From the NCBI GenBank assembly GCA_001972305.1, contig BDDD01001652.1, forward strand, positions 129,531-193,530: a DNA stretch of 64,000 nt. Reading direction: 5' to 3'. The position numbers were made by a program, and so were the translations under genes. Each line of letters opens with the position of its first letter. The stretch's first letter is position 1. Source of the stretch: Cephalotus follicularis. Taxonomy: Eukaryota > Streptophyta > Magnoliopsida > Oxalidales > Cephalotaceae. Shown here one piece after another: positions 3,303-51,510 of the stretch. The notes below the pieces were generated by a model. It was not told the DNA's origin, did no database searches, and worked only from the letters and a program-made list of their open reading frames with translations.

Positions 3303-3644
3303 TGTTGTCACACCCTGCTTCTTAAACAACATAAGTCATGGCAACTTAACACAAATATTCAGCCTATAAAAATACAATAAAATTAAAAACATTGATTCCA
3401 TCAACAAATGCGAAAGCATTTAATAATAAGCTGAACAATAACCCGAATAGTGCTTATCAAAAGAAAATAAAACGACATAAAACTCCACCCGCTCTACGGA
3501 GCTCAACGGTACCAGTCCGCCGCACCAACCTGAAAATCAATCTGCAACAGTAGGGAGTTAGCCTTTGTCCTCACTCGGCTAAATCATAAATGTAATTCAA
3601 GGTCAGCGATAATGAATGTCATGAAATGAATGCACTCATGATGC

Positions 3645-4020
3645 AATATATAATATATCGCTACGTGTACATATACATATGTATATACATATATGCCAAC
3701 AGGTGCAACCATGCCAAGTGGCTACAACCAACAAATCATCAATCATGTCTCAAAGGACAAAATCAATCCAATCAAATACGAAGAGCGCCGCCATCTCCTG
3801 GCCCCGACGTCGTACTCTTACTCCGGCCCCCGACTCCCGGGTCACGAAGCAAGCCAACAAATCAAACTCATGAATGCTCGCACGCTGTGTTCAGCAATCA
3901 TGGTAACCCATGCTACCCGCACTATGTGTCAGGTAACATTGTACTTGGGCGTCCCTAGCCATCTCCTAGCACCTAGGAGAACATCCCCGACACCGGCCAT
4001 CAGTGACACTCCGTCACCCC
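3645..4020 (-). repeat. TA-rich tract and small hairpins in element A LTR
   Basis: After the TA-rich tract (3645-3695) come several perfect or near-perfect hairpins: TCTCCTAG/CTAGGAGA with a 3-base loop (3962-3980), GTGAC/GTCAC with loop ACTCC (4003-4017), and GCCA/TGGC with a 5-base loop (about 3790-3802). Similar units occupy the same place in other LTRs of this window. Confidence 0.6.
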
Positions 4021-4317
4021 AGCCAGTACGGCATCAATCACAATCAACAAATCAATTCATTTCAAATCGTTTCCAAGTAGTTTATAAAGTACTGGAAATA
4101 ATACATTTATATCAAAATGTATTGCATCTTTGAAACCACGTTTCAATCCGTTTAAAACATACATTTATCAAAAATATATATTTTCATAACAAATAATGAT
4201 TTATATAAAATCATGCAAGCATTTCTCAAATGAATAAAAACACTTTAGAACCAAACACATTTCAATCACCAACTCAATTCATATCAAAATGCAATGCAAG
4301 GATATGCTCAAGTATGC

Positions 4318-4660
4318 TGGTCAGTCCCTATCCAGTCGGCTGTCTCCCCTGACAGTCGGCTGTTCGCCTTCGACAGCTGGCTGCCCTAGTCCTGGCAGTC
4401 GGCAGCCACTTCCTCCAGTCAGCTGCCCTCTCATGGCAGTCGACTGCCTTCCTTATCCAGTCGGCTGCCCTCACTTGGCTGTCGACTACACAACCTCCTG
4501 CAAATGTGTTCTATCTAACGTATGGACAGTCGACTGGTTCATACACCCAGTCGGCTGGTTCCCTTTGAGTAGTCGGCTGTCCGCACTGGGCAGCCGGCTG
4601 TTCTAGCCCTCCAGTCGGCTGCCCGCCATGGCAGTCGACTGGATTTACACCAGTAGGCAA
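4318..4660 (-). repeat. AGTCGRCTG motif array 2 in element A LTR
   Basis: More than a dozen copies of CAGTCGGCTG or CAGTCGACTG (the latter a perfect palindrome) lie at irregular spacings of about 15-35 bases. A second block of the same motif lies at 5180-5335. Confidence 0.8.
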
Positions 4661-5179
4661 AAACAGCAGGTAAAATGCACATCACCCACACTTCAATCCA
4701 TTCCTATACGAGCATTCAACAACAACAACATACATTTATGCTCATAACACAGTTCATGGCATGCATTTCACCCATTAACGTCCATTATAACAACACTTAA
4801 ATCACAATTATGAGATTTACCCCTACCCTAGAATTCCAAGTTAGGAATTGCAATCCACCTCTTTAAGTTCCAATCCAAGTTTCCAAGTCTCTGGATTCGT
4901 CCAGTAACTCCAACAAATTCGGATCCTCCGGTCACTGGTCCAAGCTCCCCAACACAGCCCACACAAAGCTTTTTGGAACACAACACACACACTTCCTCTC
5001 CTTTCTCCCTCACACTATTGCACTTTCTTCTCCTTTTGGCACGATTGGTGAAGATTGAAGGAGAGAAGACACGTTTTTATGGAGAAAACCGACATCTCTC
5101 TCTTCTCCTTTCTCTGCCCGCATTAAAACAAAATACACCCTCTTTTCCCACTAACAGTCTGGCATGCACGTTATGCTGC

Positions 5180-5335
5180 CAGACCTGTCGACAGTCGACT
5201 GCCTAGACCTGGCAGTCGGCTGTCCCTGCCGACACTATCCAGCCGGCTGCCTCATGCAACAGGCAGCTGGTTCCTTCCCACATGGTCCAGTCGACTGCCT
5301 CCCCAAGGCAATCGGCTGCCCGCCCTGCATCATAC
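5180..5335 (-). repeat. AGTCGRCTG motif array 1 in element A LTR
   Basis: Five or six copies of the same 9-10-base motif lie about 130-280 bases into the LTR. They are separated from the second array by a purine/pyrimidine-rich stretch. Confidence 0.78.
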
Positions 5336-5461
5336 TTTCCACACTTCAACTTTTGCCCAAGTTTAACATTACAAATAGGGAAAAGCCATAATTCTCATTA
5401 ATTCAAAGCATAATTTATATTGTAAAACAACATTACACTTTACGTAAATCCCGGGCGTTAC

Positions 5462-6064
5462 AATAAGCTCCTCCACAGTTGGAATAGGAAATCTATCTTT
5501 GATTGTGATGTTGTTTAAGGCTCTGTAATCAATACAAAATCTTCATGAATTATCCTTCTTTTTTACCAGTAATACAGGTGAAGAAAATGCACTATGACTA
5601 TGCCTGATTATGCCAGTTTGCAGCCTATCATTCACATGCTTCTCTATTTCTACCTTCTGGAATTGAGGATATCTATTGATAGGTGCAGACCCTGGCAACA
5701 AGTGGACATGATGATCATTTGGTCTCAAGGGAGGTAGATGTGTAGGTTCCTCAAAAACCTGATGATACTCTACCAACAATTTATGTATTGCTGTTGGTAT
5801 ATCCTCTAATGAAGCTGCAACATCTGATGTATAGGTAACAACTTTGAGCAGGAATGAAGAAGCAATCTCTTCAGAAGACTGAAGTTTTCTCAGTTGCTTA
5901 AACCTCAAGGGCACCATTCTTAAGAGTCTCACACTTCAATTATATCTGCTAACCTTGCCAAGTAGACTTCACTGTCAAATTTTGATAATTAGTCTGGATG
6001 GGTTAAGGGTTTCTAACCATTAAAACCCAAAACTACATCTGAACCATTCAATGGTAATACAAAC
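5462..6064 (-). pseudogene. pol: Element E, downstream piece: protease C-terminus and RT N-terminus
   Basis: Minus-strand translation shows the end of a retroviral protease (about 6000-6064, LPLNGSDVVLG) and the start of a Ty3/gypsy RT: AFSSPVLLVKKKD (about 5545-5585), then after one stop FCIDYRALN (about 5515-5545). It is cut at 5462 by element A and at 6064 by element C. The upstream half of the same protein resumes at 28241, so both newer elements landed in E. Stops and a frameshift near 5935 show that it is dead. Confidence 0.8.
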
Positions 6065-13895: not shown

Positions 13896-14582
13896 TGTAA
13901 TGCCCCGAATTTCATAAATAATTATTATGAAATTGGTGCGTGTACAGTAGTGATAAAATCGATAGAGCCTGGAGTAATAAAAAGGTATTACGCATTTAGG
14001 TCGTAATCGCGTTAGCTAAGACGGCTAATAAAATCTTTTTTTAATGCGCGACAATAAAGCCCAAATGTTCGCAATATTATTGCGATTATTTTGGTGGTTG
14101 TTTGGATAATTTATGTCGCGATTTGCGGAAAAATCGGGACCCGTACCTTAGTATTTTACCAGAAAATACTAAAGAGAAAGCAAAATAACAAATGAATAAA
14201 GGGAGGGGAGACACACACGGGCGCATCACGCGCCCGTGCATGAAAGGAATTGCAGGCGCTCTGTGCGCCTGCAACAGGGAGAGATGGCGAGAGAGAGTGG
14301 GAGAGAGATCGGCAGAGAGAACGGGAGAGGACGCCGGAGCCAGCTACCGGACCGAGAGAGCACGCCGGTCAACCCAGGGCCTCCAACCGACGGTAACCTC
14401 CTCCCCCTCCTCTTTTTCTTCTTTTTTCTTCTCCCCGATCGCCACTGTGCGAGCCTCCTCCCGGCGTTTCCCGGCGTCGTTAGCGTCGCGGATGGCCTGG
14501 GTTTTGGTGTAGAGGACTAGCTCTACCCATTTCGACCACTGGTGAGGCATGATTCGGCCAGAAACGGCCGGAATCAGTTGAA

Positions 14583-14790
14583 TGAGTCGACTCAGCGAGT
14601 CGACTCACTGTCGCCTGAGACACGGCGTTTGGCGCCGAGTCTTGGCGAGTCACAGCCATGGATGTGTAGGACTGGTGAATGTGTGGCGTTTTTGGGTGGT
14701 GATCGGACCTGTGGAGGTCCGGCGAGTTGACTCAGTGAGTCGCAACTCACTGCCGGCCGTGGCGCGGCGTTCGGCGCCGATTCCCGGCGA
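14583..14790 (+). repeat. GAGTCGACTC palindromes in LTR F
   Basis: TGAGTCGACTCA (14583-14594) and GAGTCGACTC (14597-14606) are perfect palindromes. Decayed copies such as GAGTTGACTC and GAGTCGCAACTC, and a NGGCGCCGAGTC unit, follow to 14790. Confidence 0.72.
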
Positions 14791-15295
14791 GTCTTGACCG
14801 GTTCTGTGTAGACCGTTCAATGTGAAACCCATTGATGGGTGTTTCGTAAGCTGGTTGTGTCGGTCAGATTCCGGCCGGCGTTTCGGCGACGGAAATGTTT
14901 TGTGTGTCGAACGTAATAGAAATGTGTTGTATGTGCAGTGTGCAAGCGGCAATTGGATTTGGCAGTGAGGAACTGATCAATTGGCAAGAACCGGCTTCGG
15001 TTCAACGATTATCGAAAAGGTTCGGCAATTGAACCTGCGGCTCGACTGTGCTGCTGTAACAGGTAGGGGAAGCTATACATGCAAGTTTGAGTTCAATAAT
15101 ATTGTAATGCCATTGATGAAACGCATGGTTTGCGGATTATGAATTGTGTGACTGTGTTAGGGTTGCTGTATGAATAGTTAACCTGTCCTGTATATTGTGT
15201 TTTGCGATGATTGCGAATTGAATGACATGTGTTGTGTGCTTTGAACTCTTTTGGTTTTGAGGCGTGTTGAGGGAACCGTGTTTTGGTTCTCTTAA

Positions 15296-15600
15296 CCGTC
15301 GACGCTTAGGAAAGAAGCGTCGACGTTATGGATTGTTATACGGGGAATGAGTCCTGATTTGCGATAAACGTCGACACTTGCATAAAACGTCGACGCCATG
15401 ATTTGTTGTATGTGAGAATGGACACGTGTGCCGTTGACGCCTGAGGTTCCTACCTCAGAGCATCGACGCCAAAGGGATGAGACATTGACGCGTAAAGTTC
15501 TGGTTGAAAGCGTTGACACTAAGAGTTAAGCGGCGACTCTTAAGTGACTGAGTTGAACATTAACGCCTATATGGTGCATGTTGACGCGAATAGAGCCCGT
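15296..15600 (+). repeat. GTCGACGCC/GTTGACGCC array in LTR F
   Basis: About a dozen copies of CGTCGACGC and its CpG-decayed forms (GTTGACGC, ATTGACGC, ATCGACGC) lie 15-40 bases apart. The same core dominates LTRs G and M. Confidence 0.75.
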
Positions 15601-15866
15601 TTGTATTATTGAGCATATGTTTGCATTGCATACAATTGTTGATTGAGCTATCACATGTTTTCTAAAATGTTCTTCATTTTAGAAGTGTATAAATGGTTTA
15701 TCAAATCATTGTTATATGGAAATGTATTGTTTTCGAGTATTTTACTATACCTTGAAACTACTTGAAAACGATTGTAAATGGATTGTTATATATATTGAGC
15801 AAATATATATGTTTTTCAAGTGTTTATATTTATAAATTACTTGGAATGGAATGAGAAACTTGTGAT

Positions 15867-16640
15867 GACTACTAAGCCCTGTTGGGTAAGTAGCCAAGTC
15901 TGTGAAATGTTTTATGGAAATGTATTGTTTACAAGTATTATATTTGTTAAGAATTACTTGTAATGGATTGATTGATTGTGTTTGGCTACTAAGCTCTGTT
16001 GAGTAAGTAGCCAGGGACTCCCTTTTGGGTTACTAAGCTCTGTTGAGTAAGTAACCAGGAACTCCACTACTAAGCTCTGTTGAGTAAGTAGCCGGAGATT
16101 CCATATACTGTAGCTAGTAAGCTCTGTTGAGTAAGTAGCTAGGGTTTCCCATGCAATGGTTACTAAGCTCTGTTGCGTAAGTAGCCAGGGACTCCCTTTT
16201 GGGTTACTAAGCTCTGTTGAGTAAGTAACCAGGAACTCCACTGCTAAGCTCTGTTGAGTAAGTAGCCGGAGATTCCATATACTGTAGTTACTAAGCTCTG
16301 TTGAGTAAGTAGCCGGAGATTCCATATACTGTAGTTACTAAGCTCTGTTGAGTAAGTAGCTAGAGTTTCCCATACAATGGTTACTAAGCTCTGTTGAGTA
16401 AGTAGCCAGGGACCCTGTTTTGGGCTGCTAAACACTGTTGTGTAAGCAACTTGAATTGGATTGTTTGTCCGATGTGACATGATTGATGTATTGCTTGTCC
16501 AATGTGACTGATTGACTGTTGTGGTGGTTACTAAACGCAGAGCGGAAGTAACCGGGTTGTGAAATACAGAGTGGAAGTGACCGGGTGCTAAACACAGAGT
16601 GGAAGCATCCCCGCATAGAATGTTGTCCGTGGTGACACGA
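15867..16640 (+). repeat. Covarying hairpin array in LTR F (about 14 units)
   Basis: Each unit has an outer stem closing ACTAAG...GTAAGT and an inner 3-bp stem with TGTT loop. Example at 15983-16013: outer TGGCTACT/AGTAGCCA, inner CTC/GAG. At 15869-15893 the inner stem is CCC/GGG. Near 16445 it is CAC/GTG. At 16526-16553 it is CGC/GCG with AGA loop and outer GGTTACT/AGTAACC. Pairing is kept while bases change. Between units lie short spacers such as CAGGGACTCCC. Confidence 0.82.
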
Positions 16641-17314
16641 TTGATTGACCGTGTTGGTTGTTTGTCCGTTGCGACATGTTATACTGGATTGTTGGCCCGT
16701 TGAGGCATAACTGATGGTTTGTTCGGTCCTTTGAGGACATGATTGTGATTGGTCCGCTGAGGACATGACCGTGATTGTGTTGATGTAGCCCTAACGGGTT
16801 GCACCTGTACTGTGAATATGTATATATAGATACATATATGTATATACTGTTATATATACCGTACTGCATCACTGTGCATTCATACATGACATGCATTATC
16901 ATTGAAACCGAACTGTATTTATACTTAGCCGAGTGAGGACAAAGGCTAACCCCCTACAGTTTCAGATTGATTTCAGGTTGATGCAGCGGATTGTTACTGT
17001 TGAGCTCCGTGGAACGAATGGAGTTTTATGTTGTTTTTACTTTTGAGAAATGTTAATGGATCATTGTAATAAATGAATCGATGTATTGATGTATATTGTT
17101 CACGCTCCGTTTGTGGGCAGTTAACTTTGATGATGTTTATTGTTGTAGCATGTAGTATGGGATGCATGTTACGTTATAATTCGGCTTATATTTAAATGCT
17201 TCCGCAAGATGTTAATGGATATGGAAAGTTTTAAATTTATGGTAAATTGTATAAGCCGGATTTATATGTTGACTGCCACCATTTTTATTGTTGTTATGGG
17301 AACGGGGTGTGATA

Positions 17315-35516: not shown

Positions 35517-35938
35517 TATAGTCAGATATCAAGAATACCACAAAGGGTATAAACAGTACAGTTGTCCAAAGACCAGTGGGTGTCACACGTCGCTATCTCC
35601 TAGCCCCAACGATGCTCCACCTAACTATCACCATACACTCCGATGATGACAGAAAAGGTAAACAATATTGCCGGCATTTATGGGCAATTAACAGTCACGA
35701 TCTACATTGCAGATAAGTTTGGTGTAAAATCACTAGCCAATTCCTGGCACCTAGGTCCACCTCCGTAGTCAGTGATACACTCCAATCACTAGACTAAAAG
35801 ACTATGAATCACAAACAATTCAGTTATCACATATATAATGTAATATAAACAGCAATTCTCATTGGTAGAGAAAACAGTATAACAGTAACAGTGGTTCTCC
35901 TTAGAGAAAACAGTACAGTGGAAAACGTTCATTTGTGC
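35517..35938 (-). repeat. Element M LTR, segment 2
   Basis: It aligns with the reverse complement of LTR G around 37780-38400, including the TACATTATATATG segment, and carries hairpins such as AGTGAT/ATCACT (35771-35790) and GCCA-ATTCC-TGGC (about 35739). It ends at the ATATA target site of G. Confidence 0.75.
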
Positions 35939-35943: not shown

Positions 35944-36089
35944 TGTAACGCCCGGAATTTCCATTTAATGTATTACTGGAAATTCCTTTGTGACTAAATG
36001 AGAATTATGGATTTCAACTCATGGAGTTGGATTTGGAATGGAAAGTGTTAAGGAATATGGTGTTGGAAAGGAAATGCAAAAATAAGGGT

Positions 36090-36370
36090 TTTGAGCGTCG
36101 ACACCAAGAAATGGCGTCAACGCCAAAGAAGGCACACTGTGATTAAGGCTTCAGGCTTTAAAACGTCGATGACATGAAGTGACGTTGACGCCAAGTAATA
36201 AAGGGCACGCTTAAGACTCCTTGCCTTGAGACGTCGACGCCAAGTAGTGACGTCAACGCACACCGATCGAGAACTAAAGGGTTAGGTGTTAACACAGCTT
36301 GAAGAACCTGTTAATGCCAAGGAAGAGAGTCAACGCGTCAACACGCATCGTGGACATTGACGGCAAAAAC
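36090..36370 (+). repeat. GTCGACGCC array 1 in LTR G
   Basis: About ten copies of CGTCGACGCC or decayed forms (GTCAACGCC, GTTGACGCC, GTCGATG) in 280 bases, at irregular 15-35-base intervals. Confidence 0.78.
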
Positions 36371-36894
36371 TTTCAGTGGAATAAGACAAAATGCTGACAG
36401 AAGATGCGTGAAGAACAAGGGGGAGATACTTTATCTCTTCCCCATGCTCTGCAGTGACATAAAGAGAAGGGAGAGTGACTGATGGCATCACATCGGCCGA
36501 GAGAAGAAGAAGAGGGAAAGAGAGGGAGAGCCACACTCTCCATGGTTGAACTGGTGTAAAAGCTTAAAGGCTAAGGAATCGGGAGCTCGAACTTGGAGCT
36601 ACTGTGCTAAACTTGGGAGCACGAAGCTACTGGCTGGTGGGACTCAAAGAGGTGGACTTCGATTCATAACTTGGGATCTAAGGTAGGGACTATATACTTG
36701 TATTTTGAGTTCAAAAATAGTGGATGTTCATTTGGTAAACTGCATGAGTGTTGGATTTTGTCTGCGCGTGTTAAGGTTGCCATAAACTGTATACATGACG
36801 TGACTGGGAGTGAAAATGGGTTGATTTGCATGTGTTGCATGCATGATTCTTGCTGGATCGACACACTGGGGCGTTGTGGTATTGTGCTAGTTTG

Positions 36895-37480
36895 ACAGAC
36901 GTCGACGCCTAGAGGGAAGACGTCAACGCCTTGGCTTGTTATACAGGGAAGAAGACGCTTTAAGCGTCGACGAGAATGTTACATGTTAATGTCTTAATGG
37001 GATAATTGATAGTTTACTTGTTGGTGTTTGATTCTCGTCGACACCAAGGAAGGATAACGTTGATGTTTAAAGCTAATGCTTTAGAAACCGTTAACGCCGA
37101 TAGTTGACGTTGACGCGTAAGGTTCCTACCTAATGCGTCGATGCTAAGGAGAAGTGTTAACGCTTAAGGTTCCTACCTTAACGCGTGGGTGTCTAGCGGT
37201 AATGTTGATGCCAATGGTACACGTTGACGCGTAAGGTTCCTACCTAACGCATCGACGCTAAGTGAAGTTTTAACGCGTAAGGCTTCCATGCTACACGTCG
37301 ACTCCATTGATATACGTTGACGCCTAAAGGACTGTTGTGAGTGATAGGCATGGAATGTGCATTGATGCTTAAGGATACTATCTACACGTCGATGCCTAGG
37401 TTATACATCGACGCCATAAGGACTGTTTTATACGTTAATGCCGTTGATACACGTTGACGCCTTTTATGTATGTCAACGCC
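36895..37480 (+). repeat. GTCGACGCC array 2 in LTR G
   Basis: More than twenty copies of the same motif family, with companion AAGGTTCCTACCT units (an AGGT/ACCT inverted repeat) at about 37115, 37165 and 37230. The 3' LTR carries the matching block at 41560-42150. Confidence 0.8.
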
Positions 37481-37918
37481 AATATGTGTCATTTATGCAT
37501 ATGCGATTGTTAAGTGATTGTTTAATGATTGTTGATCCTTGGACTGCATATTGCTATCGTTATAGATGCTTATATCTATCAAGTATTCTCAAATACTAGT
37601 GTTTAAAGTGTTTTGAAGGACTTCAACAACTGAGTGCTATAAGCACCATTTATTATTAGTGTTAGAAGGTATTTCACAGATAAATACTATTGTTCAAGTG
37701 TTTTCCCGAAAGGAAAAATGATAAAGTGTTTAAAGTGTTCAAGTGGTTCTCTGATAATGAGAACAAGTGATAAGTGAAAGTGTTTTTATGCCATTGAGCT
37801 AAAAGTGTTTTATCGTATTCTCTACCAAGAGTACTTATTGTTATATTACATTATATATGTAATATATGTATTGAACTATACTGTTGTGAATTGATTGATT
37901 GAAATGGGAATTTCACAT

Positions 37919-38305
37919 TAGTTACTAAACACTGAGTGGAAGTAACTAGGAATTTCGAATGAGTGAGCTGCTAAACACTGAGTGGAAGCGGCTAGGGTTT
38001 CCTGTACAAAGGTTACTAAACGCAGAGCGGAAGTAATCAGGCTACTAAACACAGAGTGGAAGTAGCTAGGGACTCCCACGCAGAGCGGAAGTAACCGGAT
38101 TACTAAACACAGAGTGGAAGCAAACGGGTGCTAAACATAGAGTGGAAGCATCCCTAAACTTGATTGAGTGTATTGTTCGTCCTTGTGACATGAGTGATTG
38201 ATTGTTGTGGTGGTTATTAAACACAGAGCGGAAGTAACTGGGTTGCTAAACACAGAGTGGAAGTGACCGGGTGCTAAACATAGAGTGGAAGCATCCCCGT
38301 ATAGA
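37919..38305 (+). repeat. Covarying hairpin array in LTR G (about 10 units)
   Basis: Units pair an outer stem with an inner 3-bp stem capped by AGA or TGA. Examples: TAGTTACT/AGTAACTA with CAC/GTG (37919-37948); GGTTACT/AGTAATC with CGC/GCG (38011-38038); GCTACT/AGTAGC with CAC/GTG (38041-38066); GGGTGCT/AGCATCC with CAT/GTG (38126-38153). Substitutions in one arm are mostly matched in the other or leave G-U pairs. Confidence 0.84.
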
Positions 38306-38581
38306 GTGTTGTCCTTTGAGACATGATTGATTGACTGAGTGATAGTTGTCCTATATGACATGATTGATTGACTGGAGTGCTGTCGTATGTGACATGACTG
38401 ATCGACTGATTGACTGTTGTCCTTTGTGACGTGATTGAATGACTGTTGTCTTGGTGACATGATTGATTGAATGACTGTTGTCCTATGGGACATGATTGAC
38501 TGGACTGGATTGGTTGTCCTTGAGACATGATTAAGTGATTTCATGGTTGTAGGCACTTGGCATGGTTGCTTACCTATTGAT

Positions 38582-38582
38582 T

Positions 38583-38631
<49 letters not shown>

Positions 38632-38632
38632 G
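38582..38632 (+). repeat. (CA)n(TA)n microsatellite in LTR G
   Basis: Pure CA then TA dinucleotides. The 3' LTR has a shorter allele at 51064-51090. Confidence 0.9.
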
Positions 38633-39051
38633 ATATATTGCATTGTGAATGCATTCATCACATGGAGTTTATTATAGTTGATCCCAAGTGCATTTATATT
38701 TTCTCTACTTAGCCTGTGGTTTGGCTAGCCCCTTACAATTTTATATTGAAGTGAAGGATCGCATGAGCTATTGGAGCTGTACTTGGAGAGCTTCTATTTG
38801 GCTAAGGTTGTTTTAAGTGTATCGCATTATATAATCATGCTCTGTTGTGTTGTATTTACATTTCTGATATGTAAAATATAACAAGTATTGTAATGAGTTA
38901 TGCATGTAGTATAGGCTGCATGCGAATACTTTTAAATGATCCAGTATATTAATGCTTCCACAAAGGTTTTACATTTATGACTTTTTGGTAAATATTGGAT
39001 TAAACTGATAACCATATATATGTTGTTAATGGAAAACAGGGTGTGACAACA

Positions 39052-39063
39052 TGGTATCAAAGC
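39052..39063 (+). other. Element G primer binding site
   Basis: TGGTATCAAAGC lies three bases after the LTR, one mismatch from the initiator Met-tRNA PBS. Confidence 0.83.
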
Positions 39064-39155
39064 TTATTATTAAATAATCTATCGTTGGGATACTATCCTC
39101 GGCAAATAAGGAATTGTTTTCCTGGTGATTGATATCATTCCTTATAGGAAACATT

Positions 39156-40360
39156 ATGGATCTTCGAAGTGGTAGACGGGGAAGGCGTAGGACCGACGAA
39201 GGAGTCAATACCCCGCAAGTGAATGAGGAAAGAAATACTCCACAAGTGTATGAAGGAGTGAATGTTCTGCAAATGAATGAAGGAGGGAATGTCCCACCAG
39301 TGCACGATGAGAGGAGTACTTTCGATCGCATGGCGGATCTTTTTCAATAGCAGATGCAAGCCAATGTGGTGAATATGGAATGGTTGCGGCAATTGTGTGA
39401 TACTAACCAAGCCTACCAGCGAGCTCCTGAAGTTTATCATGCTGGTGGATTTGGGAGAAATTTGGAGAGGTTCATGAGGCAGAATCCTCCGATGTTCAAA
39501 GGTGAGCTTGATGCCACCATAACGGAGCGATGGATGAAAGATATGGAGAAAATATTTGCTGCTCTCGAGTGTACTGATGAGCAAAACTGAATTTTGCTGT
39601 GTACCGCTTATGGGGAGAAGCTACCCATTGGTGGGAAATGATTGAAGCATAGTGGGAATCTCTTGATCTTGATAGGACTTGGGACATATTTCAGTCCGAG
39701 TTCTCTGAAACTTATATTCCACAGATGGAGCGTGACCAGAGGGAGACTGAATTGTTGGAGTTATGTCAGGAAGACATGACGGTAGCTCAATACCAGACTA
39801 AATTTATTGAAATGACAAGGCACACGCCCTATCTAGTAGAGGGTGAATCAAGGAAGATCCGAAGGTTTTTAAAGGGTTTGAGGTTTGACATCAGATCTAA
39901 GCTGGTAGTGTTACAGCTGGGTTCTTTTGAGGAACTTACAGAGAAGGCTAGAATTCTGGAGGCCGACATTAATGAACGGAGGGTGGAGAGATCTCTCACT
40001 ACTCAGTTGAGACCTGCTTCTTCACACAGACAGGGAAGTTATAATCATGTTGGGTCATCTAAGACTGCTACTCAAGGTACTCCTAGTCAGGGGAGTAATG
40101 TCAGATCTGAAGCTTGTTCTCATTGTGGCCGTAAAAGCCATCGACTGGAGGATTGTTGTTTGAAAAATGGGCTATGCATGAAGTGCGGAACATCTGACCA
40201 TTTCGCAAAGGATTGTCCAACAAGGCAAGTGATGGTGCCTACTGGACCTACAAGTGATAGTGGTGCTACAGCTAGACCTTCACAGCGGAGATATACCGGC
40301 AAAAGCATCATGAGAGGTAAGGTTTCACTCTTAATTTTGAAGTCTACTTATGATTTCTAA
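39156..40360 (+). pseudogene. gag: Element G gag
   Basis: ATG 39156 (MDLRSGRRGRRRTDEG) resembles the basic start of gag in A and N. Conserved parts: FGRNLERFMRQNPPMFKGEL (39450-39510), [10 protein letters not shown] (about 39610-39640), RKIRRFLKGLRFDIRSKL (about 39850-39905), and two intact CCHC knuckles, CSHCGRKSHRLEDC and CMKCGTSDHFAKDC (40113-40215). Defects: amber at 39348-39350 in place of Gln, a shift near 39588, a stop near 39652. It ends at RGKVSLLILK, where protease begins in A and N, so pol is missing from the gag-protease boundary on. Confidence 0.87.
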
Positions 40361-40607: not shown

Positions 40608-42432
40608 TGTAACGCCCGAAATTTCCATTTAATGAATTACTGGAAATTCTGTTGTGACTAAATGAGAATTATGGATTTCAACTCATGGAGTTGGATTTGG
40701 AATGGAAAGAGTTAAGGAATATGGTGCTGGAAAGGAAATGCAAAAACAAGGGTATTGAGCGTCGACGCCAAGAAATGGCGTCAACGCCAAGAAATGGCGT
40801 CAACGCCAAATAAGGCACACTACGCTTAACGCTTTAGGCTTTAAAACGTCGATGCCATGAAGTGACATCGATGCCAAGTAATGAAGGGCGCGCTTAAGGC
40901 TCCTTGCCTTGAGAAATCGACGCCAAGTAGTGATGTCGATGCCCACCGATCGAGAACAAAAGGGTTAGGTATTAATGCAGATCGCAAAACCTGTTAACGC
41001 CAAGGAAGTCGTGGACGTTGACACCAAAAACTGTCGGTAGAATAAGACAAAACGCTTACAGAAGATACGTGAAGGACAAGGGGGAGTACTTTATCTCTTC
41101 CCCATGCTCTGCAGTGACATAAAGAGAAGGGAGAGTGACTGATGGCATCATATCGACCAAGAGAAGAAGAAGAGGGAAAGAGAGGGAGAGCCACACTCTC
41201 CATGGTTGAACTGGTGTAAAAGCTTGAAGGCTAAGGAATCAGGAGCTCAAACATGGAGCTGCTGTGCCGGACCTGAGAGCAGGAAGCTACTGGCCGGTGG
41301 GACTCAAAGAGGTGGACTTTGTTTCCTAACTTGGGATCTAAGGTAGGGACTGTATACTTGGATTTTGAGTTCAAAAATAGTGGATGTTCATTTGGTAAAC
41401 TGCATGAGTGTTGGATTGTGTCTGTGCGTGTTAAGGTTGCCATAAACTGTATACATGACGTGACTAGGAGTGAAAATGGGTTGATTTGCATGTGTTGCAT
41501 GCATGATTCTTGCTGGATCGACACACTGGGGTGTTGTGGTACTGTTCTGCTTCGACAAACGTCGATGCCTAGAGGGAAGACGTCAACACCTTGTCCTGTT
41601 ATACAGGGAAGAAGACGCTTTAAGCGTCAACGCCAATGTTACACGTTAATGCCTTACTAGGATAATTGATAGTTTACCTGTTGGTGTTTGATTCTCATCG
41701 AAGCCAAGGAAGGATAACATTGACGTTTAAAGCTACTGCTTTCGAAAATGTCGACGCCAATAGTTGACGTTGACGGGTAAGGTTCCTACCTAACGCATTG
41801 ATGCTAAGGAGAAGTGTTAACGATTAAGGTTCCTACCTTAACGCTGGGTGTCTAGTGGTAACGTTGACACCAATGGTACACGTTGACGCATAAGGTTCCT
41901 ACCTAACGCATTGACGCTAAGTGAAGTGTTAACGCGTAAGGCTTCCATGCTACACGTCAACTCCATTGATATACCTTGACGCCTAAAGGACTGTTATGAG
42001 TGATAAGCATGGAATGCGCATTGATGCTTAAGGATACTATCTACAAGTAGACTCCTAGGTTACACGTCGACGCCATAAGGATTGTTTTATATGTTAACGT
42101 CGTTGATACATGTTGACGCGATGGATGCACGTTGACGCCTTTTATGTACGTCGACGCCTATATGTGATGTTTATGCATATGCGATTGTTAAGTGATTGTT
42201 TAATGATTGTTGATGATTGTTGATCCTTGAACTGCATATTGCTATCGTTATAGATGCTTATATCTATCAGGTATTCTCAAATACTAGTGTTTAAAGTGTT
42301 TTCAAGGACTTCAACAACTGAGTGCTACAAGCTCCATTTATTGTTAGCGTTATAAGGTATTTCACATATAAATACTATTGTTCAAGTGTTTTCCCGAAAG
42401 GGAAAATGATAAAGTGTTTAAAGTGTTCAAGT
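40608..42432 (+). repeat. Element G 3' LTR, part 1
   Basis: It aligns with 35944-37740 of the 5' LTR and is interrupted at the AGT target (42430-42432) by element H. It resumes at 50227. Confidence 0.9.
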
Positions 42433-42800
42433 CACTACAAAAAAAGGGGCAACGACAAGGGCACGTCCCCTCGCCATTGACTCAACGGCGAGGGGAAGCC
42501 ACCCTTACCAATTTCCTCCTCGCCAGCCCCTACAGCGAGGTTATGGCGAGGGTACGGCGAGGGTGGAGTCCCCTGGCCATGCACTGCCCTCACTACAGAG
42601 AGGGTATGGCTAGGGCAGGCTCCCCTCGCCATGGCGAGGGGAGGTCGCTACCCTCGGCATACCCTCCCCATGGCGAGGGTATGGCTAGGGGCCCTCTTCT
42701 CCTCGGAGTGTCCCTCTCCTCACCACCCTCGCCGTGCCCTCGCCTATGTTTGCTACAGAATGCCCTCGCCTACGCCTTGCCATGCCCTCACCGAGCCCTC
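42433..42800. repeat. Left subterminal repeats of element H
   Basis: About 15 copies of CCTCGCC or its complement GGCGAGG, often as the palindrome CCCTCGCCATGGCGAGGG. In En/Spm such repeats bind the TnpA protein. The right end has the same motifs at 50070-50210. Confidence 0.85.
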
Positions 42801-43049
42801 GCCATTCTGCAGATTCTGCTGTAGGAACTATCAACAGAATCTATGCCCTAAACTCCAAGCAAAACCTGCAATTCATTTCAGCAACAACCACAACCACAAT
42901 TTATATTTCACAATTCTCAGCAGTAGACACATTTCATTCATTCTTAACTAACAAAACAATGGAAAAAAGCTTTGTCAGCATTTTATAAAAGGATAATATG
43001 TCAAATACATTTACACACAATGTTAGAATATGTCAGATACAACAGACTA

Positions 43050-44715
43050 CTACTCGTCATCGCTATCGCTATCATCCGAATCTCCGGATGGCTGGAAGGC
43101 GGGGTGCCGAGACCGTGGCGAACTATGATCAGATGGTGTGTGTGTGGACTGAGACCCCATCATCTGCGTCATCTGAGCCATAAAAGTCTCCATCTTCGAC
43201 TCCATCCGGTCCAGCTGGCTCTGAAGGTCTGAGACTCTGTCCGACCCTGGGGTGCTTTGTGACGGGTGTGAAGTGAATGGGCAACTCTGACCTCCCACTC
43301 CCGACTGAGTACCTCAAAGTGCTTGTGGTAGCATCTTCGTGGAAGTCATGTAGTTCCCTAATCCACCGATCTTGCCCTTCCGCGGACCCGCAGTAGCCTC
43401 CGTCCATGCCACGATGTCGAAGGAAGCAGGCACCCTAGTACCGTCGGGCCCCTCCACAGTATCCGGCCCTGCAGCAACCCGGTACTTTTCCTACAAAAAA
43501 TACAAGATTAATCAGTTAAGTGATTAAACATATACAAGATTAATCAGTTAAGTGACACATTCATTTCAGTTTGTAACTCACCATCCTCTCCATCATAATA
43601 GGAGGTGGAAGAGTATCATCCCCCGCCTTCTTATGGGTGTCTAAGTATACATCCACATGCGGTTTCCCCTTGGCCCCCTGCAAGTCAACTGGTATTTCGA
43701 ATTAGTTTGAAACACAAATTAAGTTTATTAATCACCATAATCATAAATTTAGTTTATTACTTACCCCAATCTGTAGCTGTCTCTCCATCGTGTTACTGCC
43801 GCCAGTGTAGGTGGTGTGTGCTTCGTTCGCCCTATTGCCGGCATTTGTTCTTGGCTGCTTCTGAAAATCCTCGGACAACCACCTGTTCACCATTTTATCC
43901 CACACTGGCCGTGGTATCTCTGCAGGGCCATGCTGCATGCACTCTGGGCTCATCTGCTGCACCCCAACGCCCGTCATTGCCTTCCTCCTATAGTTACACA
44001 TCCATTTTGGGTAATTCTCCTACGCGTACTATAGAATGACAGTCTGTTGTGTGCATCAGAAGGAAGAAATTGGAAGTGCTCCTACAAAACATCAGTGTCA
44101 AAACAATTAGTGAGTAAAAAAAACTAAATAATATTTACGATAAATTGAAACAGTTTTACCCACCAATAGCTTCTCCCATAGTAGTTCCTTCTCTGAATCA
44201 GGTCACTGGCTCCAAGTGATCCATGGCTGTAGTATTCTGCTCTTGATGATGGACGCTATCGTGTTCTTCACGTCCATCTCCTCAAAACACCTGCAATTAA
44301 ACAAACAAATATTAGCACATACATCATAGGTTAGCTTTAAAAAAATGTACTTAAATTACTAGTCACTTTACCCATTCGGACTGATATGCCGAATAGGTCT
44401 AGCGTCAACCCTCTACGGGGGTAAGTCCGCCCCCCTACTAGCTCTCCTCCTCCGCCGCTGATGGGAACCTGATTCAAAAACATGGTTATGTTTCACTATA
44501 AACATATATAATAAAATATAACAAAAAAGCTTCGACAATACGAAAAACAGTTTAATGTCAAATATCGTGACATAACAAATTTCCTTACTAGCACTGGGAA
44601 CATCGATATCCTGCTCCTGTGACCCCAGCTCCAAGGAGCCCGGCTCAGGATGTGTAGATCCTGAGGGTGTGCTTGAGTCTCTAGGGACAGAGAGACGTGA
44701 GACTCTCCGAGGCAT
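43050..44715 (-). pseudogene. Element H gene 2: Transposase_24/TnpA-like protein, six probable exons
   Basis: Clean splice sites allow an exon model on the minus strand: about 44715-44590 (MPRRVSRLSVPRD), 44470-44371, 44290-44164 (MDVKNTIASIIKSRI), 44081-43765 (PRPVWDKMVNRWLSEDFQ, TYTGGSNTMERQLQ), 43677-43582 and 43490-43050 (LDRMESKMETFMAQMTQMM, acidic DDSDSDDE end). Donors such as GGG-GTAAGTAA (43764) and ATG-GTGAGT (43581) are near-consensus. The W-x8-W-type region and the following THTGGS-like motif identify the plant En/Spm accessory transposase. A TGA in exon 3, a frameshift near 44035 and a TGA near 43313 inactivate it. Confidence 0.78.
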
Positions 44716-44868
44716 ATCTACAAGAACTCACCATTTTTAAAAATGGTACAAACTACATACAGTTGTCCTACTATATATTATCAAATTACAAAATCGTGTC
44801 TTATTAGAACATTAAGAATACTATTGCAAACAGCACTTACTACATATACTACACTATTAACTTATAGT

Positions 44869-46107
44869 TTAATCCATACTATCAATATCCATGTCGTCCT
44901 GACTATCGGAATCATATTCCATCACTCCGTCCTCCTCTTCCGTGTCTGAAACATCGTCTTCCCATTCATCTTCCTCGTCATCCGTATTGTCACGGTCTGA
45001 CGTAGGATCTCTTATTCGAACATTTGGAGGCAATACTACCTCCTCCCATTCGCCATCTCCTCTAAGGGAATCTTGACTTTCAGGTCCTAAAGCAGCTACA
45101 AATGAATGTAGTGGATCGGTGGCGACATCTTCTTGCAATGTCATATCCATACCCAAATCATCGCCATCTTCTCCCTCATAATCAGGAAGGGTGTAGGAAT
45201 TTCTGGGTTTCGTTTTTATTACAGACACCCACCCTTTGTACCTACGATCATTGGAAACCCTAGGTGCGTATAACACCTGCACAGCCTGACTAGCTAGCAT
45301 GAACGGCTCGTATGTGGGGAGTTCCTTTTCTGGGTTCAGACGAACAATCCCAAACTCGTCCACTCTGGTACCTCTCTCCGAAGTGTCAACCCAATCACAC
45401 TTGAATAAAACAACGTTGTTGTCTTTTCCATAGAAATCGAGCTCCACGACGTCAACCAAGGCTCCGTAGACGTCACTGCAACTATCATTCCAGTGCTTCC
45501 CTTGATCATTACACCCCAATTTTGAGTTGTTGAGGTCCTCGATGCATTCCGCTCTTAACGATCTGAAGAATTTCCTCAGCCCCTTTGTTGGGAATCCCAT
45601 ACTTGGACTTGACATTCATGAGTCGCGTCATCATAGACAGCTGGTGTGTTTTTCACAGCCATTCCACAACGGTTCGTCGGCATCCTTAAGCAGGTCGTAG
45701 AACTTCTTTGCATTGGGGTTCGGAAGTTCATCGGCCGTCTCGTCATGTTCACCAGTGTCAAAATCAATCCCCCCGACATCCATTACGATATCAACAAAAG
45801 GATTTCTCAGACCCGAGGAGTCTGGCTGCTCTACTGCAGCCCGACGGCGTTCCCTCATTTCCCCATGTTGATCCCACAACGTGTAATGAGGGGTGAAACC
45901 CTTCTTCAACAAATGTAACCGCACTTCAGATCGAGTTCCAAATGCCCTTAACTTGCAACGGCTATAAGGACATTTTATCGTACTATCCCAGACAAAATCT
46001 TGGTTTGGAAATGGATAATTTAAGAAAGCGAGCACACCCCTGTTAAATTCCTCCGTTAGTAACCCCCGGACAACCCGCCTACTCATCCAACTCCTGTCAA
46101 CAGACAT
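44869..46107 (-). pseudogene. Element H gene 1: TNP2 transposase remnant (N-terminal Transpos_assoc and C-terminal DUF4216 parts)
   Basis: The start at 46107 reads MSVDRSWMSRRVVRG, then IKCPYSRCKLRAF and GFTPHYTLWDQHGE: the transposase-associated zinc domain that begins plant TNP2 proteins. After WNGCEKHT (about 45640) a shifted frame gives MTRLMNVKSKYGIP (about 45590-45630). The TNP2 catalytic domain is absent, and the frame 45615-44869 goes straight to VVELDFYGKDNNVVLFKCDW and FMLASQAVQVLY, the DUF4216 region, ending in a long Asp/Glu tail. An internal deletion of at least 1 kb is implied (inference from family length). Confidence 0.82.
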
Positions 46108-46597
46108 TTTTTCTACAAGTAAGGTAGAAGATTGTTAGATTCAAGTATACTTTTCTTGATATGCATTGACTGAAGTGTATCTCACCACCTAACTCTAAAA
46201 GGTATGGCCCTATCCCATTCCCGACTACGTACCTCCACTAAAATCGTTATCCCGCATGCATAGTTCACTCCGAGAAAATTTCGGCAGCATCTCCCCACGG
46301 TTCCTCAAACACACGAATTAAACTAAATTGATCGGTTTAATTATGCATCCGAGGAACATGTTTAATGAGTGTAACCGAAAATTTCTTGAAGCAAACTATG
46401 TACACAAGATAACGATATATCCTACAGTGGACATACGTATGCGAGAACTGTCCGGACTGAACAATTCATGATTCACTCCTATTGAACGAATCATGAACGA
46501 GAATCTAAGGTTTCCCTCGACTTTAATCGTAATAGATAACCGAATTCTATATACAATATATATTAGTAACATAATAACATATATATACTAACATACT
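46108..46597 (-). other. Upstream region of the H transposase gene
   Basis: No gene. It lies between the transposase start and solo LTR I and continues at 49459. It probably holds a 5' exon or promoter. Confidence 0.35.
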
Positions 46598-47314
46598 TGT
46601 AACACCCCCGAACGGTGGGAGTCCTTACCGGTTCATAGTCCGAAACTAAACATAACCTATCATGAAATATAACTCAATTTTATTCCTTTTATCATATTAT
46701 TAACTTATCTTTTATTCAAAATGCGTGATAGTCTGAACAAAATGTTAACGATCTAAATCATATTCATAACTGAAATTGAAATCGTAGTCTGAATAACTTA
46801 AACATAAACTAAGAACATCATAATCCAAAGTTGTGAATAAAAAAGTCCTAACATCGTTCAAAGGCAGATCCTAATATAACCAAATGGTAATAAAATATAA
46901 ACGGATCATCTCCTAAGCGATCCTCAGACATTGGTGACATCACTCTCATCACACGTTTCCCAATTGCTGTCCCAGAATACCTGCCGCATGGAAAACAAAA
47001 ACGCGGCTGAGCAAACCTCAGTACGGATAGAGAATCATAAAACATAAAACGATGCTTTAAAGGATAGAAAATACTTGAATCTTTAAATATCATATACCTT
47101 ATGCATAAAATAATTTAACATTATTTTCAAAAGCGAAGGTAAGTAGTCATACAATCAATTCAAAATGAATATCCAATTTTCAAAGCGTTATTCAATTTCA
47201 AAACATAATCCAAGTTCAAAATCCCAAAACATATTCAAAACGAAAAACAAACAGAGACTTATCCGATTCCATAATCTCATCTCAGAGATTCAAAGTGCAT
47301 ACACATATGCGTAA

Positions 47315-47567
47315 TTGCAAGGGGTTTGCAAGGCCCACATGCCAAACGGAAGGACGTGTACGGCACTACACAATCAATCCCCAGAATTCATATCATATCA
47401 CATATCATATAACTAGAGTCGACCCATACGCCTCTATCACACATATCAGATCCATAAGTCCACCTCATGGGACTTATTCATAACATAGAGAGACGCCGTA
47501 GTCAAATCACACTGCTACGAAAGTGTCATGTGCCAGGCCTACGACATGCCTATGGTACCTCCATAGG
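47315..47567 (-). repeat. Hairpin run in LTR I
   Basis: Perfect stems: TTGCAA/TTGCAA with 5-base loop (47315-47331), ATAAGTCC/GGACTTAT with 8-base loop (47454-47477), CCTATGG/CCATAGG with 5-base loop (47549-47567). Confidence 0.75.
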
Positions 47568-48249
47568 TAGGAAATATCTTTGTGTATATCCTTATTTCAA
47601 AAACATTGCTTTATTTCTAAAAACAATTTAAAAACGTAAACACATTTTCTAAACATTTTCTGGACATAGCAAAATCATTACATAGCATCAACTCATTTAT
47701 TTTCCACTGCAAAGAGATGATCGTATCATATTTCTTAACATGTCATAACATTAAATTCGCAAAATGTCAACTGACTTTTATTTTCAAAATCGTATCGAAT
47801 CATAAAACATAGCCAAGTTCATAAAACAGAAGGAATCACATTTGAATTCATTTCGGTAAACCCGTAGGAAGAGACCAAGAACGAAGAATCGGTACGTTAT
47901 CCATAAAGTAAAACTATCTTTTTACTATAAAAAAAAAGTAGGAGGGTATCAAGGAACGAAACATCCGTACTTTAATCATAAAAAGTGAAACGGAATAGTT
48001 CCAATAAAATCAGATAGCCAAAGAGCAGAAAATCCGTACCTTAAGCGATCACAACAAAGATAGACGAATTGATCAACAATTTTAAAAGTCCCTCGAAGCA
48101 CAAAAATCTAAAAGATACAATATCATCCATATAAGTTTCAAAAACCACTTCCAAACATTAAACAACAATTTAACAGTGTCTAAAACATATCCCAAATCAT
48201 TAGAAAACCAAACGGATAACAAAACTTGAAACCATAAAATTTACTGGAC

Positions 48250-48480
48250 AAAACCAGCCGACTGTATCAAAATCCAGTCGACTGTTTGGGGCATGGCAGT
48301 CGACTGTATCACATGGCCAGCCGACTACACAAACAAAGCTGCAGCCAGTCGACTGTGACAAGGGTCCAGTCGACTGTGCAAGGCAAAACAACCGACTGTT
48401 TTACAAGGCAGTCGACTACTCAAAGCGAAACAACCGACTGTTTAAATGGACAGCCGACTGTTCTGCTCGACAGAACAGCA
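48250..48480 (-). repeat. AGTCGACTG/AGCCGACTG array in LTR I
   Basis: About eleven copies, four or five of them the perfect palindrome CAGTCGACTG, spaced about 18-25 bases. Same core as in LTRs A and N although the LTRs otherwise differ. Confidence 0.8.
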
Positions 48481-49458
48481 AAACACAGCAGTTTCAATGT
48501 AATTTTTCTGTCAAACTCCAATGTTATAATACCAGAAGATTACCAACACTTAAACAAGACTTATGTGACATAACAGTTGCATTTAAACACCGAGAATCAT
48601 GCAATTGTGATCATACTTGTAGAGACAATTTTCCAATTCATTGTATACTTAATTCCATTACCAAATTTCTGTCAAACACCAATTATTATATTCAGAACCT
48701 GTTTTCTATCATTACAAGACATTTCATGACTTTCTAACAATCTCAGAAATATTAACAAAACATACATGGCAGGGATTAAAAACAAAACACACTAGCAGCC
48801 TATATGAACATGCACTGGATACTATAAACGAAAACTCACTGCTAAACCATATCAATAGAGGAAAACAAACCCGATTTCGTGAAACAAAGAGGAACAAAAT
48901 AGATTCCAAGCTTTGCAGATTCGGCTACCAGGCTCAAGAAAATAATGGAGGCATATATAAAGAGCAATTGTGTATATAAACAGAAAATATAAAGCCATAT
49001 TCGACTAGATAAAGGAAGAAGAATCCAAAACTGATAGGATAAGGAAAAAGACAGAAATTTCCGGGATTGCTAGGGAGAAAGAAAAGGAAAGAATCGGTTT
49101 GGGAGGGAAGAAAGAAGAAAACGTGCAGGAGAGAGAGAGAGAAAATAAGAAATAAAAATAGTTTTGCCAAAATACAATATTTGTTTCCTAATAAAACCCT
49201 TTTTACCTTGTTTATATTAAAACTAATTTTAATCAATTTAAAATACCAAACAACAATTATTACTTATCTATAATTACATTTTATCAATTATCCAAAAGGC
49301 AACATAATTGGTATTATAAAGCCCAAAGCATAAAAGCCCAAAAAAATAATATCATATAGCCCATAAATTAAAATAGACCAACATAATATAACAAAGCGAA
49401 ATAAAATCAAATAAAAATCCGAAAATAAGCACACGAACAAACGGGGTATTACAATACT

Positions 49459-49543
49459 ACTACACAAAAATAGTAATAGTATATATAAACTAAATTATAT
49501 ATATTAACATACTACTAATACACACATACTATATACTATATAT

Positions 49544-49579
<36 letters not shown>

Positions 49580-50069
49580 CTAAATTATCCAAACAATAAA
49601 CACCACACACAAGCAAGTAGTAAGTAGGAAATTGCACACAGCAATCGCACAATAAAACACACAGAAATATGCTGGTAGGCACTCGGATATGGAGCAACCT
49701 ACCTGGAAGGTGGTTGGAAACTATATCACTAATTATTTTTTACTTAATATATATACATCACAGTAATATATATATATTAAATCTGAAAATATATTTATAT
49801 TACCAATTTATTACTAATTAATATATATAAATCACAGTAATATATATAAAACAAAAAAATGGAATTTAGAACTGGAAATCGGTACCTGGATTTGATGATT
49901 GGAGGTTGGATCTAGAGCTTGGAGAACTACTGAATTGGTGCGATTGTGCTTGGAAAGCAAGGAGAGAAAGGGAGCGGCGACAGGGAGAGAGAGGGAGAGC
50001 AGGAGCAGCGGCGGGAGGGAGGAAAGGGAGAAAAGAAAGAGAGAAAAAAAAGGAGATGTCAGCAATTTA
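49459..50069 (-). other. Element H right-hand non-coding region
   Basis: AT-rich, with a (TA)n tract at about 49545-49578 and a GA-rich stretch (49955-50050). It contains the module ATGCTGGTAGGCAC...ATGGAGCAACCTACC (49669-49705) that recurs in LTR J. No ORF. Probably the promoter side of the minus-strand transposase gene (inference). Confidence 0.45.
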
Positions 50070-50226
50070 GGGCGAGGGCAATTAATGCCCTCGCCATGGC
50101 GGCGAGGGTAACATTACCCTCGCCATTCTCTTTTTAAATAAAAAAATTGCTCAACGACGAGAGGATCACGTGCCCTCGTCGTGCCCTCGCCATTTGCCCT
50201 CGCCATTGACCTTTTTTTTTGTAGTG
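50070..50226. repeat. Right subterminal repeats and TIR of element H
   Basis: GGCGAGG/CCTCGCC motifs at high density, then poly-T and GTAGTG. Mirrors the left end. Confidence 0.85.
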
Positions 50227-51510
50227 AGTGGTTCTTTGATAATGAGAACAAGTAATAAGTGAAAGTGTTTTTATGCCATTGAGCTAAAAGTGTTTTATCG
50301 TATTCTCTACCAAGAGTACTTATTGTTATATTACATTATATATGTAATATCTGTATTGAACTGTACTGTTGTGAATTGATTGATTGAAATGGGAATTACA
50401 CATTAGTTACTAAACACTGAGTGGAAGTAACTAGGAATTTCGCATGAGTGAGCTGCTGAACACTTAGTGGAAGTGGCTAGGGTTTCCTGTACAAAGGTTA
50501 CTAAAAACGCAGAGCAGAAGTAATCGGGCTACTAAACACAGAGTGGAAGTAGCTAGGGACTTCTACATTCTGCGGTTACTAAACGCAGAGCGGAAGTAAC
50601 CAGGTTACTAAACACATAGTGGAAGTAACCGGGTGCTAAACATAGAGTGGAAGCATCCCTGAACTTGATTAAGTGTATTGTTCGTCCTTGTGACATGAGT
50701 GATTGATTGTTGTGGCAATTACTAAACGCAGAGCGGAAGTAACCGAGTTGCTAAACACAGAGTGGAAGTGACCGGGTGCTAAACACAGAGTGGAAGCATC
50801 CCCATATAGAGTGTTGTCCTTTGAGACATGATTGATTGACTGAGTGATTGTTATCCTATGTGACATGACCGATCGACTGATTGATTGATTGACTATTGTC
50901 ATTTGTGACGTGATTGAATGACTGTTGTCTTGGTGACATGATTGATTGAATGACTATTGTCCTATGGGACATGATTGACTGGACTGGATTGGTTGTCCTT
51001 GAGACAGGACCGAGTGATTACATGGTTGTAGCCACTTGGCATGGTTGCTTACCTATTGGCTGATACACACACACACACACACATATATATTGTGATATAT
51101 TGCATCACGAATGCATTCATCACATGGCGTTTATTATGGTTGATCCCAAGTGAATTTATATTTTCTCTACTTAGCTTATGGTTTGTCTAACCCCTTACAA
51201 TTTTAGATTGAAGTGAAGGATCGCACGAGCTGTTGGAGCAGTACTTGGAGAGCTTCTATTTGGCTAAGGTTGTTTTAAGTGTATCGCATTATATAATCAT
51301 GCTCCGTTGTGTTGTATTTACATTTCTGATATGTAAAATATAACAAGTATTGTAATGAGTTATGCATGTAGTATGAGCTGCATGTGAATACTTTTAAATG
51401 ATCCAGTATATTAATGCTTCCGCAAAGGTTTTAAATTTTTGACTTTTTGGTAAATAATGGATTAAACTGATAATCATATATATGTTGTTAATGGAAAACG
51501 GGGTGTGACA
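50227..51510 (+). repeat. Element G 3' LTR, part 2, with hairpin array
   Basis: It continues the LTR after H (matching about 37741-39048). The hairpin array lies at 50404-50800 and keeps units that the 5' LTR has lost, for example an intact GGTTACT/AGTAACC with CGC/GCG at about 50574-50601. The ATATA duplication follows at 51511. Confidence 0.9.

Follow-up and report, generated by a model that had tools for sequence, protein, structure and literature searches.

Tandem covarying hairpins in LTRs of a plant Ty3/gypsy-type retrotransposon group, placed within a predicted leader intron

Carrier LTRs F and G

The window (the whole stretch of 64,000 nucleotides analysed) carries hairpin arrays in LTRs of two families, F and G, and the assignment of the arrays to these LTRs in a preliminary description of the same DNA was right. 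LTR F (13896..17314, + strand) is a solo LTR with the termini TGTAATGCCCC...GGTGTGATA and the flanks GCTGG and GCGGG. Element G is a gag-only element on the + strand with two LTRs and the target site duplication (TSD) ATATA. Its left LTR lies at 35944..39048 (+) and its right LTR is split into a first part at 40608..42432 (+) and a second part at 50227..51510 (+) by an insert (42433-50226) that starts with CACTACAAAAAAA, ends with GTAGTG, has the 3-bp AGT on either side and encodes a DUF4216 protein (44869-45615). We take this insert to be a CACTA (En/Spm) transposon. A primer binding site-like sequence, TGGTATCAAAGC, is placed at 39052..39063 (+), presumably of the initiator Met tRNA type, and is followed by the gag region at 39155..40360 (+; Retrotrans_gag 47.1 bits with a cut-off of 24.1). 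The CCHC zinc knuckle of the G Gag scores 19.7 bits, just under the Pfam cut-off of 20.8, and that of a relative at 1011-2432 on the minus strand scores 31.7 bits. With paired TG...CA LTRs, the TSD, a tRNA primer site and gag, element G is an LTR retrotransposon of the Ty3/gypsy type. The Tekay/Del chromoviruses, a clade recognised by an integrase chromodomain and pol phylogeny, are a candidate placement for the carrier; G itself is gag-only.

TCGA-centred palindromes (GCGTCGACGC, CAGTCGACTG) occur many times in LTRs of the carrier group, at 36100-37480, at 51739-52000 and, on the minus strand, at 4330-4660. In the G LTR the palindrome stretch has similar fold scores on its two strands (z -4.4 and -5.1), and by eye the sense strand of LTR D, described below, has many C-A type variants in these palindromes. 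The near-equal folding together with the C-A variants makes it likely that the palindromes are a DNA motif.

Architecture of the hairpin arrays

The window holds 34 units of a two-level hairpin, all on the + strand, assembled into three arrays. Array F (15867..16610) has 15 units with the TGTT-loop units first and the AGA-loop units after, the array of the left G LTR (37920..38296) has 9 units plus one truncated, and that of the right G LTR (50405..50801) has 10 units; the arrays lie at the places given in the preliminary description. Three of the 34 units are irregular and were aligned manually; in one of them two inserted bases were omitted from the row. In each unit a 7-bp outer stem leads through a 3-by-2-nt internal loop into a 3-bp inner stem, which is capped by a loop of 3 nt (AGA, TGA and others) or 4 nt (TGTT). 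The internal loop is AAA/GA, or AAG/TA in most of the TGTT-loop units, and an array is about 9-15 units long per LTR. A core pattern, composed post hoc from units already seen, matches the window 19 times at up to three mismatches compared with 0.04 matches expected from shuffles.

All four Watson-Crick types occur at the middle inner pair (A-T 17, T-A 9, G-C 5 and C-G 1, with 2 of the 34 units unpaired), and outer pair 3 is T-A in 15 units, C-G in 9, G-T in 5, T-G in 4 and C-A in 1. LTR F contains a 174-base tandem duplication, which makes several of the F units recent duplicates of one another, and the unit at 38097 in the left G array has lost pairs. In whole-array folds the mean outer pairing probability is at least 0.5 in only 21 of 31 units, which counts against reading the arrays as an RNA element. 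Rfam gives no match across the window at the gathering score and none in 15800-16800 at E up to 1.

Two diverged units with the same two-level geometry are present in LTR D of a relative on the minus strand (3306..5462, -). Unit 1 (3912..3937, -) reads GTTACC TGA CAC ATA GTG CG GGTAGC, and unit 2 (3872..3899, -) has a long outer stem, a GAA/CG internal loop and the inner sequence CAC AGC GTG. Both have the 3-by-2 internal loop and the CAC/GTG inner stem seen in the arrays, whereas their outer stems differ. Among nine copies of D, comprising that of the window and eight of the 40 listed, unit 1 is invariant and unit 2 varies, with the complete 10-bp outer stem in one copy, an extra mismatch in two and a 3'-arm base missing in three. 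The sense fold of LTR D is no better than the antisense fold.

At the array position of LTRs E, D and H, multi-level hairpins with a GGAG loop are visible by eye (56735-56860, 3740-4080 and 35575-35780, respectively, all on the minus strand), the inner stem being GCCA/TGGC in D and E and GCTA/TAGC in H. The fold z values of these hairpins are weak (sense -2.2, -0.1 and -1.0 for D, E and H), with the antisense value lower in all three, so that these hairpins, promising to the eye, rank as no more than a lead. Seven pattern matches in viral contigs are without the outer stem and look like chance in coding sequence, and two further scans of viral contigs gave no relative.

Copies in the source genome

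The window's own plant genome (1.58 Gb) was searched with three queries: the G array (44 matches), the F array (55) and the D region (40). First-look candidates numbered 1,921 for G, 2,715 for F and 2,650 for D, of which 40 each were scored. The loci outside the window comprise 38 G places and 29 F places, 67 altogether, and their units were gathered for their resemblance to four core sequences, without regard to pairing; with the window included, 829 units from 68 sources were obtained. A primer binding site directly 3' of the LTR, plus a gag-like match, is found at 5 of the 29 F-type loci. Some LTRs are mosaic between families, with loci L022, L032 and L036-L045 combining a G-like array with an F-like 3' end. 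Comparison of the F and G LTRs gives its highest-scoring match in the array's 3' part (80% over 250 nt, E 2e-55), a similarity that exchange between families could have caused.

Splice-like signals on either side of the arrays

LTR F has a predicted intron at 15063..16965 (+), with the donor AACAG/GTAGGG and the acceptor CTAACCCCCTACAGTTTCAG/ATTGA, and an AATAAA at 17068 (+). In element G a splice donor is predicted in the left LTR (ATCTAAG/GTAGGG, 36683..36688, +) and an acceptor in the right LTR (CTAACCCCTTACAATTTTAG/ATTGA, 51187..51206, +); the acceptor position of the left LTR reads differently from the right copy. Donor-like AG/GTAGGG (or GTAAG) is present in 13 of 16 LTRs examined and acceptor-like CTAAC..AG/ATTGA in 12 of the 16, with AATAAA about 100 nt beyond it in 8 of these 12. 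With strict patterns, the array lies between donor and acceptor in 11 of 11 copies in which both are recognised. Looser patterns applied to 69 distinct sources recognise a donor in 33, its 13 exon bases having at most one mismatch in 31 of the 33; where no donor is recognised the sequence stretch often stops short of the donor site, and the donor of LTR F, seen by eye and with the first pattern, is missed by the looser exon pattern. Donor and acceptor are placed 1.2-2.6 kb apart in 25 of the 69 sources, and at least three units lie between them in all 25. Because the array is bracketed by conserved donor-like and acceptor-like sequences, it sits in a predicted leader intron of the LTR.

A search of the whole genome for the joined exon halves returned three places, each with two mismatches and none convincing, compared with one for a reversed control. 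As 23 of the 25 copies would match the joined-exon pattern if they were intronless, intronless LTRs are at most rare among such copies: either there is no splicing, or the spliced RNA is not copied. Such scarcity would be just as expected in the absence of splicing.

A short hairpin of the form TTAGCC...GGCTAA is located just 5' of the predicted acceptor in several LTRs (16925-16949, 38709-38728 and, on the minus strand, 3558-3582). In the left G LTR, GGCTAG stands in place of GGCTAA.

Pairing and covariation of the arms

Of the positions in the 7-bp outer stems of the 829 units, 94.0% are paired, compared with 86.2% when the 3' arms are re-dealt inside each locus. The observed stems are composed of 83.2% Watson-Crick, 10.8% G-U, 2.7% A-C and 3.3% other pairs, and the re-dealt stems of 72.6, 13.5, 7.4 and 6.4%, respectively. 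Arm combinations occurring in at least three loci include GGTTACT/AGTAACC, AGTTACT/AGTAACT, AGCTACT/AGTAGCT, GGCTGCT/AGCAGCT, GGTTGCT/AGCAACT and GGGTGCT/AGCATCC, so that one pair changes on several backgrounds.

The preliminary description had held that the arms change together and keep their pairing, and had named the lack of covariation above a phylogenetic null as an outcome that would speak against this. A null of this kind was run in which the columns evolve independently on a tree, each keeping its own number of changes (300 simulations). For the 76 distinct units found in at least two loci, the summed covariation is 1.45 compared with a null of 0.225 (sd 0.155, maximum of the 300 simulations 0.925); for all 371 distinct units it is 1.351 compared with 0.272 (maximum 0.843). 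The joint change of the arms thus stands above both the arm-shuffled and the tree-based null. Outer pair 3 and inner pair 2, two of the ten pairs, exceed all 300 simulations, outer pair 5 is matched by 8 and outer pair 1 by 19 of the 300, and outer pairs 2, 4, 6 and 7 and inner pairs 1 and 3 have no covariation above the tree null in the 76 units. The unit tree is built from 29 columns and is poor, the tree of whole arrays being better. On the latter, 40 orthologous G arrays have a paired fraction of 0.960 compared with a null of 0.922 (sd 0.010), which none of 300 simulations reached, and a covariation reached by 4 of 300. Their A-C cells number 63 compared with 95 in the null (sd 25; 22 of 300 as low) and their G-U cells 342 compared with 319, with 51 of 300 as high and hence no excess. 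With covariation above the phylogenetic null, the units bear one mark of a conserved structured RNA, and the RNA shape itself appears to have been kept by selection.

Shared and private states in the G arrays were compared at pairs whose commonest state is Watson-Crick. States present in at least three copies are G-U in 22 cases, A-C in 6, other in 2 and double Watson-Crick in 1; those in two copies are 7, 12, 10 and 1, and those in one copy 19, 14, 59 and 9, in the same order. Of the first class, 23 of 31 states retain the pairing, as do 8 of 30 of the second and 28 of the 101 private states, the other 73 of which break it. The difference from the private states has p 5.5e-6 for at least three copies and p 0.004 for at least two copies (31 of 61 kept). 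This fits selection during activity and decay after insertion. The private changes taken by themselves resemble unconstrained decay, as would be seen in a functionless minisatellite of hairpin origin in which the pairing is a relic; the excess of covariation over the tree null makes this reading very improbable, as does the location of the best-scoring match between the F and G LTRs in the array's 3' part, for which exchange between the families is an alternative cause.

Complementary arms could also arise without selection on RNA if template switching, or correction within the hairpin, operated during DNA or cDNA synthesis while tandem duplication and gene conversion spread the units. A process of this type is described for RNA genes in PMC8794818, the 174-base duplication in F and the mosaic loci are in keeping with it, and the G-U bias that would oppose it is mixed, as set out below. 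However, the frequent breaking of pairs by private states gives no sign of such correction once an element has inserted, and the 3-by-2 loop shared by the D units, on other outer stems, is left unexplained. As a full account it is rather unlikely, and template switching may have helped make the paired changes. Gene conversion among units, an alternative raised in the preliminary description, is excluded in part: whole-unit exchange is possible, but conversion leaves the origin of the different paired arm combinations unexplained.

Sense RNA or DNA as the conserved form

On two-stranded DNA, G-U and A-C mismatches are equivalent, whereas on RNA only G-U pairs. The inherited arm combinations, defined as those in at least three loci (34 of 173; related combinations are not independent), contain 27 G-U and 7 A-C cells, and 16 and 0, respectively, at outer pairs 3-7, as maintenance of the sense RNA would predict. 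Private combinations one step away have 19 G-U, 11 A-C and 42 other cells. The fold z of the sense strand is below that of the antisense strand in 32 of 40 arrays (means -3.7 and -2.5), compared with 8 of 38 upstream control stretches; a separate control stretch in the G LTR, however, likewise has its better fold on the sense strand.

Other comparisons give less. In the state counts above, the G-U to A-C ratio depends on the cut-off: states in at least three copies differ from the private ones with p 0.07, and those in at least two copies (29:18) do not differ from them (p 0.82). Compared with unpaired columns the G-U bias has p 0.06, and in slid registers shared G-U exceeds A-C in 6 of 8 too. 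A replicate with F arrays (14 of the 29 F loci, of one architecture; states in at least two copies; G-U-majority pairs left out) gave no G-U support, its three shared states at Watson-Crick pairs all being A-C. Outer pair 2 is rich in A-C (102 compared with 42 G-U in the 829 units). With the strand evidence mixed, it is likely, not proven, that sense RNA and not DNA is what is kept.

The alternative at the DNA level is that the units are tandem repeats providing dyad sites for a host factor in the LTR, in the manner of an enhancer. Repeated protein sites are frequent in LTRs, and the TCGA-type palindromes of the same G LTR, with the z values given above, look like DNA motifs. The arms of the array units, however, vary yet stay complementary, and the inherited combinations favour G-U over A-C, so that a DNA-site role for the arrays is quite improbable.

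Proposed role of the arrays

We tentatively propose that the arrays serve a plant Ty3/gypsy-type LTR retrotransposon group as a structured RNA element, located in a predicted leader intron and marking the unspliced RNA for packaging through a protein, most likely Gag. Transcription would start close to the 5' end of the LTR, and some of the transcripts would be spliced; splicing would remove the array from messages, and the unspliced genomic RNA would keep it. The row of equal hairpins would present many binding places for one protein, which suggests that many copies of that protein are bound. The protein would most likely be the element's own Gag, with a host export or splicing factor nearly as likely. 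Only unspliced RNA, the form that needs packaging and reverse transcription, would then be packaged and copied. The arrays would thus function as a multivalent cis-acting RNA element that most probably tags the unspliced genomic RNA for packaging; export is a close rival. The wider picture of beads on a string, in which about ten two-level hairpins in an LTR leader intron are lost on splicing and so separate messenger from genomic RNA throughout a large plant retrotransposon group, is speculative and doubtful as a whole. The interpretation in the preliminary description is supported in part: the pair-keeping change of the arms exceeds both nulls, and conservation of the sense RNA is likely but less firm. 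Among the uses proposed there, two are disfavoured, as loops of 3-4 nt would be ill suited to dimerisation by loop kissing, and stems of about 10 bp to Dicer-type processing in silencing; packaging or export are the candidates left.

The array might instead serve RNA export or evasion of splicing, allowing intron-containing genomic RNA to exit the nucleus, or slowing its splicing, in the manner of retroviral and IAP transport elements. The position of the array inside the predicted intron agrees with this, but it rests on the same data as packaging and nothing separates the two; in addition, we know of no plant factor that binds such units. This reading is unlikely, yet a close rival of packaging. 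Cis-acting transport elements are present in mouse IAP (RTE) and MusD (MTE), where such structured RNAs serve the export of full-length RNA (PMC12786077). The arrays differ from these in belonging to a plant element, in being tandem within an LTR and in being known at the level of sequence.

Packaging as the favoured role has its closest likeness in the retroviral psi signals, hairpins of the untranslated leader that are located 3' of the major splice donor, where splicing would remove them, a position that is predicted for the arrays as well. The arrays differ from psi in repeating a single two-level hairpin 9-15 times within the LTR and in being described so far from nucleotide sequence. Structured RNA inside plant LTRs reportedly occurs in retrozymes as a hammerhead ribozyme, in contrast to which the array is without an Rfam family match. 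In Arabidopsis the LTR retrotransposon Evade is likewise served by a structured RNA, the ENE motif, which differs in forming a triple helix with the poly(A) tail and in being located in the 3' UTR (PMC12501189). TE-derived enod40 hairpins (PMC10578108) were considered as a likeness and dropped. Cis-acting structured RNA in retroelements is already known; as far as searches of open-licence PMC papers go, in which nothing similar to such arrays was found, the new feature is the tandem covarying array in LTRs between splice-like sites.

The sorting of plant LTR retrotransposon RNA among export, translation and packaging is little known, and a 2025 review states that export of this RNA has never been studied directly (PMC12786077); the array is a definite element with which to study it. 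Among plant LTR elements, BARE has separate spliced and packaged RNA pools, but it is another element and its abstract is without mention of a hairpin array (PMC3735527). The rice element Retrosat2, in whose main text the words hairpin and intron are absent, has an LTR of more than 3.2 kb with a long R region extending from nt 245 to 2266 (PMC3485330).
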